Shown one piece after another: positions 22,861-46,519 of a stretch of 64,000 bases of DNA. Within the stretch, counting starts at the first letter, position 1; every line of letters starts with the position of its first letter. This DNA is from Punctularia strigosozonata HHB-11173 SS5 (lineage: Eukaryota > Basidiomycota > Agaricomycetes > Corticiales > Punctulariaceae), in the NCBI RefSeq assembly GCF_000264995.1, contig NW_006767452.1:295664-359663 (forward strand), written 5' to 3'. The notes beneath the pieces were generated by a model. It ran no database searches. It worked only from the letters and a program-made list of their open reading frames with translations, and was not told where the DNA came from. The translations under genes and the position numbers were made by a program.

Positions 22861-23125
22861 AAGACACTAGGAACCCTTCCTCCCGTGGAACAGGTAGACA
22901 ATTTTGCGTGCTTCTGATTGAGGACCTTGGGGAGGAGAAACTGCGTATTTTTGAGACAGGGTCGTGCAATTTATTTGCTCTGTTGTTCTCTGTTCGCTCA
23001 TTAGATCTCATCATATACAACGAGGAATCCACAAATATCTTTCAGGGGGTTAGCTAGCTCAGAATCGTGCATTCCGACATGCCATGAGCCATGATCACGT
23101 CCTCCGCGCTCCAACGTGTCTCTTT
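22861..23125 (+). pseudogene. Relic of the upstream kinase-like gene
   Basis: Two stretches match the kinase-like gene in the same order: 22861-22955 with 22180-22275 (FCVLLIEDLGEEKLR for LSILLLEDLGEEKLPL), and 23045-23125 with 22382-22450 (the LAQNR/HSD/LRAP segment). The frame is lost between them. Together with the dehydrogenase relic just upstream they keep the gene order of the 20.8-22.5 kb region, which implies one tandem duplication that then decayed. Confidence 0.8.
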
Positions 23126-23224
23126 AGATCACCGAGTCTTCCCCGTCGACAAGACGCACTTACGGTCGGCGCGTGCCCGACTTACAGGGACTGCATTACC
23201 TAATCGGATGTGCTGTCATGGAAC

Positions 23225-24960
23225 AATCAAGCTTGTTAACCTTGTGCTACGCCGCTTCTATACGAATATGCGATTCATACCTTCTCAACTGAACGACGTC
23301 GAAAATGCCGAGGAGTACATACCCGGCGGCTTCCATCCAGTGGCCATCGGTGACATCTACGCGAACGGTCGTTACAAAATTCTGCACAAACTTGGCTTCG
23401 GGGGCTCCTCCACCGTCTGGCTGGCCCGCGACTATGGGCAGAATACTCCGCACGGCAGACTAGTTGCTCTCAAAGTTATGTGCGCCGACGTTTCAGCTAT
23501 AGCCGACGAGAAAATGCCCGAGTTGGTGGTCCCTCGGGCGCTCCATGCGATCATGGGCTCTTGCGATTTCCAGATTGTTGACCATCATTTCCTGGTGCAA
23601 GGCCCGAATGGGTGTCATCGTGTTTTGGCTTATCCACTCGCTGGTCCCAGTATTCGTGATATGGTAACGGGATCAGGCCGAATCGCCGGCAGTCGCCGTC
23701 TACGCGGGGATTTAGCGAGAGCCGTTGCGAAGCAGGCAGCTATGGCAATCAGGCGCATGCATCTTGCAGGCATTGTTCATGGAGGTGAGCTGAAACAGGC
23801 GCACTTTAAAGACGTCTTGCAACTCATAGATACACACGCAGACCTCACGACATCAAATATTTTATTTCGTGTGGCCAGGTCTGTTGTTGACTGGACGGAT
23901 GACGAGGTGTACGCCCATTTGGGTTTACCTCGCTCTGAAGTGGTCAGAACCTTCGATGGTTCACCTCCCGGATTGCACGCAGCCACCAAGCTCGTTGAGT
24001 CGGTAAAGCTTTCACGACTGGCCCATCTATCGCTTATTCAAGAACGTATTACAATCATCGACTTTGGCCAATCCTACTTCATTCGCGATCCCCCAAAAGA
24101 CTACGAACCCGCCACAGCAATCCATTACCAGTCGCCGGAGATGCGCTTTGATGACCGTGCAGGCGCCGAGGCCGATGTTTGGTCGCTCGGATGCGCTATC
24201 TTCGAAATCCGTTCGGGATATCCGCTCTTCGAGCCGCTGTTCGGAAGCACAGATATAATGAGGCAAACTGTCGAGACTCTCGGACGGTTACCTGACCCCT
24301 GGTGGAACTCCTTTAAGCAGCGGGTTCGGTGGTTCGAGGACGACGGTGAACCAAAGGATATACTGGCTCAGAAGCAGTCCGGGGTCAGGATAACTGCCCG
24401 CAAAACTTCGATTTCAGAGAAGCTGCGTTCCATAGGCGACGTTGATGAACCGCCTTCTGCGTACGAGGGCCCGATGATAGAAAGGTGTGGGGTCAAGCTA
24501 TCGGAGGAGCAAGTCGAATCGCTTTCTGATTTGTTGGGGAGGATGCTGAAGTATCGACCAGAGGAACGCCCTACCATGGAGGAAGTCATCCACCATAGGT
24601 GGTTCAATCTCTGAACATTAATGAGTAACAATTCCCCGGGCTCGACTACAGAACGGAAACAATCTCTTACTATCTGGGTCACATGCGTATCATGTATATA
24701 GTACGTAAAAGTGCCTGGTGACCGAAGATACGGTGATCCGAAGGGAAACCAAGTCGTATACATATGAACGTTGGCTGGCGGCTAGCGGATACAGACGATG
24801 GAATGAACTCGGAAATCGGTGACTCCATAGAAGAAACGAAAGGGACGTACACCAATCTCACGGTTTCGATCCCTAGGGTCCCAGTTGAGGCGTTAATGTG
24901 TTTCATTGTAAACCGAGTAGAACATCTCATCGCTACATTTTCGACCCTGTCGGCATCCGT
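23225..24960 (+). repeat. Tandem duplication unit 1 (kinase gene A plus 3' flank)
   Basis: Begins at the CTTGTGCTACGCCGCTTC stretch before gene A and extends past its stop through a conserved flank ending at CTCATCGCTACATTTTCGAC. The flank similarity shows that the duplication was genomic, not an RNA copy. Confidence 0.8.
23268..24614 (+). CDS. SRPK-like serine/threonine protein kinase, copy A
   Basis: Exons 23268-23784 and 23842-24614; 429 aa. Complete kinase domain: glycine loop LGFGGSSTVWLARD, lysine in GRLVALKVMCAD, catalytic loop VHGDLTTSNILF (formed across the intron), ITIIDFGQSYFIRDPP, IHYQSPEMRF and ADVWSLGCAIFEIRSGYPLF. It ends DLLGRMLKYRPEERPTMEEV. The split lobes and C-terminal pattern match SRPK-type CMGC kinases, a family expanded in agaricomycetes; orthodox SRPKs phosphorylate SR splicing factors. 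The start follows from alignment with copy B (MRFIPSxLN), although the frame is open upstream to 23091. The intron is 57 nt, a multiple of three without a stop, so retention would add 19 residues. Confidence 0.88.
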   Translation: MRFIPSQLNDVENAEEYIPGGFHPVAIGDIYANGRYKILHKLGFGGSSTVWLARDYGQNTPHGRLVALKVMCADVSAIADEKMPELVVPRALHAIMGSCDFQIVDHHFLVQGPNGCHRVLAYPLAGPSIRDMVTGSGRIAGSRRLRGDLARAVAKQAAMAIRRMHLAGIVHGGELKQAHFKDVLQLIDTHADLTTSNILFRVARSVVDWTDDEVYAHLGLPRSEVVRTFDGSPPGLHAATKLVESVKLSRLAHLSLIQERITIIDFGQSYFIRDPPKDYEPATAIHYQSPEMRFDDRAGAEADVWSLGCAIFEIRSGYPLFEPLFGSTDIMRQTVETLGRLPDPWWNSFKQRVRWFEDDGEPKDILAQKQSGVRITARKTSISEKLRSIGDVDEPPSAYEGPMIERCGVKLSEEQVESLSDLLGRMLKYRPEERPTMEEVIHHRWFNL

Positions 24961-25081: not shown

Positions 25082-26705
25082 ATGCGATTCATACCCTCTC
25101 GACTGAACGCCGTCGAAAATGCTGAGGAGTACATACCCGGAGGCTTCCATCCAGTGGCCATCGGCGACATTTATGCAAACGGTCGTTACAGAATCCTCCA
25201 CAAACTCGGCATCGGGGGATCCTCCACCGTCTGGATGGCTCGCGACTATGCGCAGAATACCCCATACGGTAGACTGGTCGCTCTCAAAGTCATGTGCGCC
25301 GACGTTTCAACTACAGCTGCCGAGCAGATGCCCGAGTTGGTCGTCCCGAAGGCGCTTCGCGCGGTCGCGGGCTCTTGCGACTTCCAGACTGTCGACCACC
25401 ATTTCCTGGTGCAAGGTCCGAATGGGTGTCATCGTGTTCTAGCTCATCCACTTGCTGGCCCCAGTGTTCATAATATGGTAGCGGGATCAGTTCGAACCGG
25501 TCGCCGTCTACGCGGGGATCTGGCGAGAGCCGTTGCGAAGCAGGCAGCTGCGGCGATCAGGTGCATGCATCTTGCAGGCATTGTTCATGGAGGTGAGCTG
25601 AAACAGGCGCACTTAAGACGTCCTCCGCTCATATATTGACACACAGACCTCACGACATCAAATGTCTTATTTCGTGTAGCCCGGTCTGTTGTTGACTGGA
25701 CGGATGATGAGGTGTACGCGCAGTTGGGTTTACCTCGCACTGAAGTGGTCAGGACCTTTGATGGTTCACCTCCCGGATTGCACGCAGCCACCAAGCTCGT
25801 CGAATCGGCAAAGCTTTCCCGACTCGCCGATCTGTCACTTGTCGAAGAACATGTTACAATCATCGATTTCGGCCAATCCTACTTCATTCGCGATCCCCCA
25901 AAGGACTACGAACCCGCCACAGCAATCCATTACCAGTCGCCGGAAATGCGCTTTGATGATCATATAGGCCCCGAGACTGATGTTTGGTCGCTCGGATGCG
26001 CTATCTTCGAAATCCGATCGGGATATCCGCTCTTCGAGCCATTCTTCGGAAGCGAGGATATAATGCGGCAAACTGTCCAGACTCTCGGACGATTACCTGA
26101 TCCTTGGTGGAACTCCTTTGAGGAGCGAGTTTGGTGGTTCGAGGACGACGGTGAACCGAAGGACATATCGGCTCAGAAGCAGACGGGGGTTAGGATAACT
26201 GCCCGCAAAACTTCGATTTCAGAGAAGCTGCGTTCCATAGGCGACGTTGATGAGCCACCTGCTGCAGACGAAGGTCCGATGATAGAAAGGTGTGGGGTCA
26301 AGCTATCGGAGGAGGAAGCCGAATTGCTCTCTGATTTGCTGGGGAGGATGCTGAAGTATCGACCAGAGGAACGCCCTACCATGGAGGAAGTCATCCACCA
26401 TAGGTGGTTCAATCTCTGAACCTTAAGGACTAACAATTCACTGGGCTTGATGCTCATGCGATCATAGTAGGAGTCCGGAACGGAAGCGATTTCTTACTAT
26501 CTAGGCCACATGCGTATCATGTATATAGTGCCTGGTGAATGAAGTTATGGTGACCGAGGGAAACCAAGTCGTGCTGGCGGGTAGAGGACGATGGAATTAA
26601 CTTGGGAATCCATGACTCCACAGTCGCACACCAGTCTCACGATTTCGATCACTGGAGTCCCAATTGTAGATTATCTCATCGCTACATTTTCGACCCACGT
26701 CCTTG
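25040..26705 (+). repeat. Tandem duplication unit 2 (kinase gene B plus 3' flank)
   Basis: Second copy of the unit described at 23225-24960, direct orientation. It is similar at both coding and non-coding positions, with several short deletions in the 3' flank. Confidence 0.8.
25082..26419 (+). CDS. SRPK-like serine/threonine protein kinase, copy B
   Basis: Exons 25082-25592 and 25647-26419; 427 aa. Nearly identical in layout to copy A, with every catalytic motif kept (LGIGGSSTVWMARD, GRLVALKVMCAD, VHGDLTTSNVLF, VTIIDFGQSYF, YQSPEMRF). Differences cluster in the N-lobe and in surface positions. The intron sits at the same place, but its 54-nt sequence has changed, and retention would now run into stops. 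It is therefore probably an active paralog, not a pseudogene. Function beyond kinase unknown. Confidence 0.88.
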
Positions 26706-41043: not shown

Positions 41044-41552
41044 TTGACTACCCACGGGCGGAGCATAGTGTATTATGTACGAACAATACGTAACAGTAAC
41101 TTCCCACAAGATTCCGGTGCTGGTACTCTCGCAGTGGGCTTGCATACCCCGGCTACCAAACACTGCCGCGGTCGAAGGAATGCACTATGGCCTGGCGCAT
41201 CGCATTCTGCCCAGCCTCCGGAGCTGTTAGCGTCGCATTTGGCTTTTGTATTCATGCAGGAAGAGAAGAACTCTACAGACGGTCAACGATAGCCAACGAT
41301 AAGGCTGTAACTGGAATTATAGACGAGCTATGTCTACATCGCGCTGAGAATGCTACAAGTAAGGTGAACGAACGAACCGCTCAGAATCTATGGCATGGCG
41401 AAGTCCGCGGTAATCGAACAGCGGGCAACTTAATGATAAGTATGGTAAGGGACGAATATAAGGGAGAGGCTAAGCTGCAGTATAAAAAATCTAGAGAAGG
41501 AGTGACTGGTCCATGAATAAATCAAGTAATGGATAGGTGGTGAACACCCTCA
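41044..41552. other. Convergent 3' region between CoA-transferase and terpene synthase
   Basis: Both neighbouring genes end here. It carries no recognisable coding sequence or repeat. Confidence 0.45.
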
Positions 41553-42775
41553 ATGCTCTTTGACAGCAGGGCGCTTCTCCAAGAGGGGTACGATACGAGT
41601 GCGCTTCACCTCGAGCCCGTGACGGCCAAAGTAACGCTGACTTTCGAAGCTCCATTGGTCGTTAGTGCGGACGAGGTTGCCGATGCTCTCGATGTAGCGT
41701 TGGACACTCGGCTGCATGCACGCGGGGTCATTCTTCGAGTCTTCCCAGAGCTTCACGAACTCCGCCGCGAGCTGCTCGTGACGCCGGCCAGTAAAGGCCA
41801 TGGCTCGGGCAAGGTTCATGCCCACGCTATGCATCACGACGGTCACGAAGTTGTGATCGGCGTCATCCTGAGACTGCTCCCGGTTGTAGGAGTACATGTC
41901 CTGTAGATCATGGGTAAGAATCCGAACTAAGCGTGAGCTCAAGACATACGTTAGACAGAGTGATCACGTCGATTGCGATGCGAGTCATCTCTTCGATAAG
42001 CGGAAGGTCGAAGATTTCCTCCGGTATGTCCTCTTCAAGGAGCATGAGAGCAAGCAAGGGTCTGCAACCGATGTTCTTGCGCCGGACCTCCATGTATCCG
42101 TCAATGTCGCGAACGTGCCGACAGTCTCTGTCGCGGGCTTGATCAACGACGGATTCGAGGTAGTCGCCAAAGCTTTTCAGGAAACGGCGCTGCATCACAT
42201 CGCTCGCATCGACGATTGCACGTTCCCAAAATCTGGTACAGGAAAGTCAGTGAGAGCATTATATACCCGAAACAAACGACCTACTGCCGAGTGATTTCTC
42301 CGCCAACCCATTCGCCTGCGGGGCGAGGCTTGTGTGGGTTGCGCAGGGCATCCAGAACAATGTCTACTTGACTGCGGACCACATCCGCAGATTGCAAGTC
42401 GGAGAACTCGTCCACGACGAAGAATAAGTTGATCAAGTCGCACCCGACTCTGAGGTGGGCTACACGGGAAGTGAGTCGCAGCACGGACGGGTGGACTCGG
42501 GGACAACACACATAGAGACATCTTAGGATAGGCGAGAGCCGCGAACAGGCCTATGCAATATCGTCAGCTTGTCAACAAGGTGTCACGAAGCAGTACTAAC
42601 CGAAGTCGCAACGGTTGAAGGCATCCTGAGCCCTCGGCTCGAAGGCACGGAAACTCTCGATCCAGGACTGCGACGCATACTTCGCCTCCTGATAGTGGGG
42701 GTTAATCCTACGAGGGAAGGGCCATTGTACAAGGGTGCGAGGAATCCGGATGATTTTCTTCTGAGGACGTCCCAT
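41553..42775 (-). CDS. Class I terpene (sesquiterpene) synthase
   Basis: Metal-dependent cyclisation of a prenyl diphosphate, most likely farnesyl diphosphate. Exons 42775-42601, 42550-42512, 42459-42285, 42232-41950 and 41900-41553; 339 aa, normal for basidiomycete enzymes. The aspartate-rich motif is [11 protein letters not shown]; the NSE motif, formed across intron 4, is [12 protein letters not shown]. The C-terminal [14 protein letters not shown] includes the RY pair. The N-terminus reads [20 protein letters not shown], matching fungal sesquiterpene synthases related to protoilludene-type cyclases. Intron 2 (51 bp) was placed to join YPKMSLSHLRVGCD. All catalytic motifs are intact, so the enzyme is probably active; its product cannot be read from sequence. 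Confidence 0.93.
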
Positions 42776-44046: not shown

Positions 44047-44048
44047 TA

Positions 44049-44315
44049 CTGTAGTTTTACGACCTTATGTTCAGGTTTGTAGAAGGGGGACAGGGACACG
44101 TTAGTTCAACTATCCGTGGGAAGTTCATTTTGACCCGGCCCGTTGGTCCTGAAGTGATATACATCACATTTGTGTTTTCCACAGTCAAAGCATTATTTTC
44201 CCACACTTAGTTACGGACGTCCGGCAGGTGAGGGGACAGGGGACCACCTGTCATTTTAGGTTCAGTTCATGAAGCCATGGGGACAGGGGACGAACATAAG
44301 GTCGTAAAACTACAG
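44049..44315. mobile_element. MITE with 24-bp perfect terminal inverted repeats
   Basis: 267-bp element. The 24-bp ends at 44049-44072 and 44292-44315 are perfect inverted repeats (CTGTAGTTTTACGACC inward). Both ends are flanked by the dinucleotide TA (44047-44048, 44316-44317), the usual target duplication of Tc1/mariner elements. There is no coding capacity. GGGACAGGG-type motifs recur just inside the left end and twice toward the right end. Probably a non-autonomous element; the superfamily is inferred from the TA duplication only. Confidence 0.85.
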
Positions 44316-44390
44316 TATTACACATTACATAGACTTCCCCCGACTTCCTCTCACTGCCACGCGCATCATTCAGAGCTCCCGCTGCAATCG

Positions 44391-44484
44391 TAGTCTCGTA
44401 ACCACACTGCCTGGGCGACGAGCAAGCAAAGTGCCTGTCGGCACTTTGCTTGCTCGTCGCCCAGGCAGTGTGGTTACGAGACTA
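44391..44484. mobile_element. 94-bp foldback element: 45-bp perfect inverted repeat, 4-nt loop
   Basis: Arms 44391-44435 and 44440-44484 are perfect reverse complements around the loop TGTC. The element is bounded by 9-bp direct repeats CTGCAATCG (44382-44390, 44485-44493), as a target-site duplication would be. Nine bases fits Mutator-type transposition best. Nothing lies between the arms, so this is almost entirely terminal repeat. If transcribed, the RNA would fold into a 45-bp hairpin. Confidence 0.85.
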
Positions 44485-44493
44485 CTGCAATCG

Positions 44494-45717: not shown

Positions 45718-46519
45718 ATGTTCAATCCGGAGTCACTTTGCGGTCATCAGCGCTTTGCGCTCAGCGTACGTTTCACGTTTTCTTAGCTGGGCCAGAGCTA
45801 ATACGCAAGCCGGGAATGTAGGGCTCGCCCTCGACCTGCGCCCTTGATGTCGTTATAGTACCGATTCCGTCCATCCTCTTCATTCTCGGTTCCGGGGTGA
45901 TTCTCCTCAAGTCTGGAAGGTCCCTGTGGCACCCGCAGGTTGCCGGCGGCCTACCCAAGTGGCTCCATATTCTCTACGCAGCGCTCGTGTTCGCCGCGTT
46001 TGGCATGGGCGTGTTGGAAATCGCGCGGGACATCGCTGCGGACTTTGGCGTCGGCTTGCTGCCTATAGATCTAATTGCTGTAGCGTTCGCTTTCTTGCTG
46101 CTGGCTGTCAAAGGCCGCAGGAGGTCCTCAACGATCAGCCTCGTGAGTTTACCGCCCCTACTCAAGCTCGGAGTGATTTGACAACTGACGAATTCACGAT
46201 GGCAGCTGTTGGTCGTGTATTGGGCGCTGTACGCCATCGTAGCCGTAGTCAAGGTTGCTCGCCTGCACCTTCTGGAGACGGAGAACCCGACGACGATGAA
46301 GAACTCGAACTACCCAAGCTCCGATTTGTTCCTGGATAACGCAGTCATGGTAAGTGCTGCATCCCACCAGCATCGAATGGGCGCGTTTCGTCTGATGTTG
46401 GGTGACATTAGCTCGGGTTGTACATTTCCTTCACGATATTCGAGATGACCCAGCTCTTCTTGGTACGAGGTATTGAGGACAAGGTGATCAAGTTTGGCGC
46501 CATTCCGACCAAGGTCTAA
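45718..46519 (+). CDS. Small polytopic membrane protein
   Basis: Exons 45718-45765, 45822-46142, 46206-46349 and 46412-46519; 206 aa. About five hydrophobic segments are visible: IVPIPSILFILGSGVILL, LHILYAALVFAAFGMGVL, IDLIAVAFAFLLLAV, VVYWALYAIVAVVKV and LGLYISFTIFEMTQLFLV. Short charged loops (LLKSGRSLW, VKGRRRSSTI) separate them. No transporter or enzyme motif is seen. Exon 2 was begun at the acceptor before GGC TCG CCC because it is the only one keeping frame with exon 1. Function unknown; it may belong to a fungal family of uncharacterised integral membrane proteins. Confidence 0.72.

Follow-up and report, generated by a model that had tools for sequence, protein, structure and literature searches.

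The foldback lies in the window, the whole stretch of 64,000 nucleotides of Punctularia strigosozonata that was analysed (C20:295664-359663). To its left is a minus-strand terpene synthase gene (frames at 41550-42246 that match Terpene_syn_C_2) and to its right an unassigned plus-strand reading frame, the start of which, judged by eye, is seemingly near 45.7 kb. The frame at 45848-46339 gave no family match in the domain scan. A separate MITE of 271 bp (44047-44317), which stops 73 bp short of the foldback, has perfect 26-bp TIRs and a TA at either edge and is, in our reading, Tc1/mariner-like. It has near-identical copies (97–99%) at C1:3350891, C13:16323 and C8:514667, one nearly full-length copy at 83% (C7:555439) and many partial ones, for a total of 84 matching stretches. 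Elsewhere in the window, the frames 23091-24614 and 25712-26419, presumably kinase-like, have most of the C-terminal half in common, which is a local duplication. The foldback consists of the following features, the target-site duplications (TSDs) having been identified by direct reading and a repeat search:

44382..44390, no strand: left TSD CTGCAATCG, 9 bp
44391-44484: whole 94-bp insert between the CTGCAATCG copies, two 45-nt arms and a 4-nt loop
44391..44435, plus strand: left arm, 45 nt, identical at 45/45 positions to the outer tip of the R-type right TIR of C2:728439-734509
44436..44439, no strand: loop TGTC, 4 nt (GACA on the other strand), where the R tip has GATA
44440..44484, minus strand: right arm, 45 nt, exact reverse complement of the left arm, R type
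44485..44493, no strand: right TSD CTGCAATCG, 9 bp

The perfect 94-bp foldback and the 9-bp direct repeats described in the initial annotation were thus found again by direct reading and repeat search, and sequence comparison confirmed that the two 45-nt arms are exact reverse complements. Pairing between the flanking G and C is the sole reason why the inverted repeat can also be taken as 46 nt long. Of the five inverted-repeat pairs listed for the window (minimum 20 nt, distance up to 1,500), it is the longest. Chance is ruled out as its origin. The fold of the DNA including its flanks has a z-score of -18.2 against 200 shuffles, and for 21 bases of the arm, allowing three mismatches or fewer, the expected number of occurrences in a shuffled window is 0.00. 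No direct-repeat families of at least 9 nt were found within the arms by the repeat search. The foldback codes for nothing and is a non-coding miniature. Folded as RNA, it reaches -96.6 kcal/mol (z = -20.0). Any transcript would take the form of a 45-bp hairpin; the small-RNA production suggested by the initial annotation would presuppose such transcription.

Both arms copy the R-type end of a longer transposon

When the genome was searched by similarity with the foldback, one other strong match was obtained (C2:734457-734509, 98%), together with two weaker ones on C4. A tip search revealed opposite-facing tips at C2:728439 / 734509 and C4:248891 / 255006. The search for elements with the same termini that the initial annotation had proposed yielded coding transposons at both places. 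The two-ended relatives are:

C2:728439-734509: transposon, 6,071 bp, TSD GTTGAGAAG perfect on both sides
C4:248891-255006: sister transposon, 6,116 bp, TSD GCGTCGCGG perfect on both sides
C12:40251-40340: older miniature, 90 bp, L-type left arm and R-type right arm
C8:1421366-1421489: element of 124 bp, TAGTCTCG tips, perfect 9-bp TSD
C6:877470-877742: element of 273 bp, TAGTCTCG tips, perfect 9-bp TSD

The TIRs are 88% identical in the C2 transposon (210 aligned) and 98.4% identical over 243 bp in the C4 transposon. Two types of end were distinguished: the C2 copy has an L-type left tip and an R-type right tip, and the C4 copy is of L type at both. The foldback arm matches the right tip of C2 at 45/45 positions and the left at 38/45, the C4 tips at 40/45 each, the right and left ends of C12 at 37/45 and 35/45, and C1:3932026 and C1:712189 at 37/45 and 33/45. 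A 25-nt R core, with up to three mismatches, occurs at four places, namely the right end of C2, both foldback arms and C12:40302-40326 (three mismatches). Each arm of the foldback is a copy of the R-type end of the transposon represented at C2 and C4.

The likeness continues into the turn. The right arm with the loop and 4 nt of the stem matches the R tip by 98% over 53 nt. Past the 45 arm bases, the R tip reads GATAGGCA and the foldback GACAGGCA, alike at 7/8 positions. TGCC-GATA-GGCA is present in the R tip, and this is precisely where the foldback reverses: apart from one base, its loop is parental, as are the four bases with which the return arm starts, and the sequence departs from the parent at the fifth base of the return. 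As the parental sequence runs eight bases beyond the arm, the foldback turns at a hairpin that pre-existed in the parent.

The C12 miniature is asymmetric, the L part being about 52 nt and the R part about 38 nt long by eye; its flanks, AGTACATGC and AGTAGATGC, are identical at 8/9 positions if the right tip has lost 2 nt. The C6 and C8 elements apparently belong to other subfamilies. The TSD was a criterion of the partner search that recovered them, and C8 was recovered also by a pattern search without it. According to the initial annotation, copies without 9-bp duplications would speak against its reading. Among the six two-ended elements (window, C2, C4, C6, C8 and C12; 11 single-ended matches were left out of this count), the duplication is perfect in five, and C12 has 8/9. 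The searched loci comprised 21 TIR-like starts: five with a partner and TSD (both ends of the window foldback, both C6 ends and C8), the four C2/C4 ends, paired beyond the short loci, one at C12, paired by eye, and the 11 single-ended ones. The single-ended C1:712189 and C1:3932026 have 34 and 56 nt in common with an L tip. An L-type fragment without tip (C19:488481-488540) was read, then left aside. With up to three mismatches, the tip search produced 38 matches (21 + 17), against 71 (29 + 42) for the reversed control. As the control gives more, most tip matches are due to chance, and they were kept solely if backed by a longer similarity or a partner.

One full copy of the foldback was found by similarity search in the genome (33.6 Mb, 32 contigs), and the end-to-end pattern (exact 8-base tips, elements of 78-108 bp) occurs at one place. 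Copies whose tips are worn escape this pattern, and the counts by similarity are minimum values. A single copy absent from long reads had been named beforehand as a reason for doubt; the single-copy half of this is what both searches returned. Like a MITE, the foldback is short and non-coding and has TIRs in common with a coding element, but one copy was found where a MITE has multiplied to many.

Family of the parent transposons

The coding content of the C2 and C4 copies is given as unspliced reading frames, hence as putative genes. DUF6589 is encoded by one frame of 804 aa in C2 and by two overlapping frames in C4, on one strand in each; in a domain scan of eight ORFs, it was matched with an E-value of 5.4e-72. 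A DEAD/Helicase_C helicase is found on the opposite strand in both copies, in more than one frame. In C4, Helicase_C scored 34.8 bits (cut-off 23.5) and DEAD 22.9, below its cut-off of 26; in C2, DEAD (24.9, cut-off 26) and Helicase_C (19.2, cut-off 23.5) were both below the cut-offs.

The initial annotation had assigned the foldback to Mutator. Mutator TSDs are of 8–10 bp, and the 9-bp duplication at the foldback would suit a Mutator (MULE) miniature. This is contradicted by the DUF6589 and helicase encoded by the long elements with the same tip, in which no MULE match was seen in the eight ORFs; the three MULE-domain places detected in the genome, on C3, C10 and C15, are outside the C2 and C4 copies. 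A Mutator origin has next to no probability left. The arrival by insertion that had also been claimed is supported, in that the foldback came as a DNA transposon or part of one: both full-length elements sharing its tips have perfect 9-bp TSDs, and the target duplication of the foldback has the same length as theirs.

AcademH DNA transposons are said to go back to Kojima 2020. PMC10045372 gives them TSDs of 9 or 10 bp, tied to their helicase, and PMC10799480 describes AcademH as low-copy in Basidiomycota, Ascomycota and Mucoromycota. A TSD of such length is present in the window (CTGCAATCG), at C2 (GTTGAGAAG) and at C4 (GCGTCGCGG), and the helicase expected of an autonomous copy was detected by the domain scans of C2 and C4. 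The parents thus share the helicase gene and the 9-bp TSD with AcademH, and the low copy number fits too, whereas the 94-bp foldback has no genes. Judged from sequence, the foldback is very probably a non-autonomous miniature of an AcademH-like transposon, a class assigned from helicase and TSD. The parents are termed AcademH-like rather than AcademH, as full membership would call for a DDD/E transposase related to that of Academ.

DUF6589 (PF20231) has no assigned function in Pfam and probably represents a transposase. Grouping of 13 matches gave seven DUF6589 loci in the genome, two of which sit inside TIR transposons with 9-bp TSDs. In an alignment of five sequences, including C2 and C4 and leaving out C14, two D residues are invariant, and a later E, located by eye, is present in four of the five, one C5 copy having Q. 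This acidic pattern is as expected of a DDE enzyme, so far as the sequence alone can tell. Searching the PDB with the DUF6589 protein gave nothing useful (best match E 0.68). There are five distant DUF6589 loci, of which four, all but C19, were included in a further scan; no helicase was found in the nine frames scanned out of 21 (at least 150 aa), two of the nine being DUF6589 pieces. The pairing of DUF6589 with a helicase therefore rests on the C2 and C4 copies. The name DUF6589 was not found in the literature searched.

Made1, a human MITE, is of mariner origin. Both it and the foldback have two TIRs with almost nothing in between, and the RNA of either would be a hairpin. The initial annotation had called the foldback far smaller than usual. 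The small size stands, yet it has precedents, namely Made1, which amounts to 80 bp by its stated parts (2 x 37 bp + 6 bp) in PMC1784062, and the Bari MITEs, of less than 120 bp according to PMC4877112. Made1 differs in being a family that gave rise to a microRNA gene group, whereas the foldback is a single copy and belongs to a different superfamily. The superfamily assigned to the foldback is also that of putative non-autonomous Academ elements in another basidiomycete, Marasmius oreades; no foldback form is described in the passages of PMC8290104 consulted. The Tm1 Mutator/Foldback elements of root-knot nematodes are similar in their inverted repeats, mostly 9-bp TSDs and MITE-like members, but, according to PMC3169594, their TIRs are largely tandem repeats of 13–15 bp and their predicted transposase is like that of the Phantom subclass of Mutator. 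Foldback (FB) elements, characterized after Tm1, have TIRs made of internal tandem repeats, unlike the window arms, which have none of at least 9 nt.

Origin of the foldback

The best explanation overall, held with somewhat better than even confidence, is a snap-back copy of one R end that subsequently moved in trans. With an R-end strand under copying or repair, a 3' end at GGCA would fold onto the TGCC eight bases back, and the native TGCC-GATA-GGCA microhairpin would prime self-copying out to the terminus. The template would end at the transposase-cut tip, yielding a product with transposon tips on both sides. The transposase and helicase of a full copy could then insert this 94-bp product in trans, duplicating CTGCAATCG. 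Taken separately, the self-templated origin is an even call, and movement in trans as a miniature is rather likely. As the foldback is single copy, its own mobility is putative, and a longer insertion may instead have been reshaped in place. In PMC8794818, template switching onto the nascent strand is described as producing perfect hairpins in one event.

A geometrically equivalent product would result from an internal deletion between the TGCC of each end of a longer R/R element, before or after insertion at this site. Inferred from the sequences, the deletion would use 4 bp of microhomology (TGCC), as in abortive gap repair, and defective Galileo copies arising through gap repair with abortion or template switching are discussed in PMC4168063. 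The TIRs of the family can be alike, as in the C4 copy (98.4% over 243 bp), and C12:40251, read by eye, looks like the product of a deletion between an L end and an R end. No R/R element was seen in this genome, however, among the two full-length copies, and such a deletion is possible but rather unlikely. It is for this reason, and because copying back self-terminates at the transposase-cut tip and so explains the exact ends, that snap-back is preferred. The preference is modest since such microhairpins are common and full-length copies few: three lie within the outermost 100 nt of this end type, against a mean of 2.2 in 2,000 shuffles, so that one at the turning point is unremarkable, and with only two full-length copies seen, the missing R/R forms say little. 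The foldback loop is one base off the only intact R end seen.

An L/R miniature like the 90-bp one at C12:40251 might instead have been inserted and both arms then made R type by template switching. Arm homogenisation with spacer inversion by this route is reported for Saccharomyces cerevisiae in PMC8604942, but the correction would have to span the whole 45-nt arm, cross a 2-nt indel and halt exactly at the tip, and the C12 model element is asymmetric; this origin is improbable. That the foldback is single copy would agree with a snap-back artefact of sequencing or assembly, but an artefact would not be expected to show exact transposon tips at either side or a 9-bp duplication, the length proper to the family, and this explanation is very improbable.

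A self-primed hairpin model reportedly exists for MITEs. This exact origin was not found stated for such a miniature in the literature searched, and novelty is not claimed. Miniatures consisting almost wholly of inverted repeat are already known, as are putative non-autonomous Academ elements of basidiomycetes. The single copy gives no sign of selection, and the foldback is mostly ordinary as a by-product of mobile DNA of a known kind, its origin being instructive. As a rule, the derivation of miniatures from long transposons is deduced from large families that have aged; it seems uncommon for the parental tip and the turning point to be visible together in one genome. With a single perfect copy, a matching parental end and an exact turn, snap-back can be separated from deletion in related strains.

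Through the C2 and C4 parents, Pfam DUF6589 is tied to a helicase-encoding transposon that has TIRs and 9-bp TSDs. Only tentatively can the parts be put together, such that a self-priming end gave rise to a mobile R/R foldback, 45 bp suffice, and DUF6589 is an AcademH-like transposase. If this is true, a single event at an excised, transposase-cut tip would produce the perfect 94-bp foldback, functional at both ends, and the DUF6589/helicase system would need no more than 45 bp of a single end type (R/R) for insertion.
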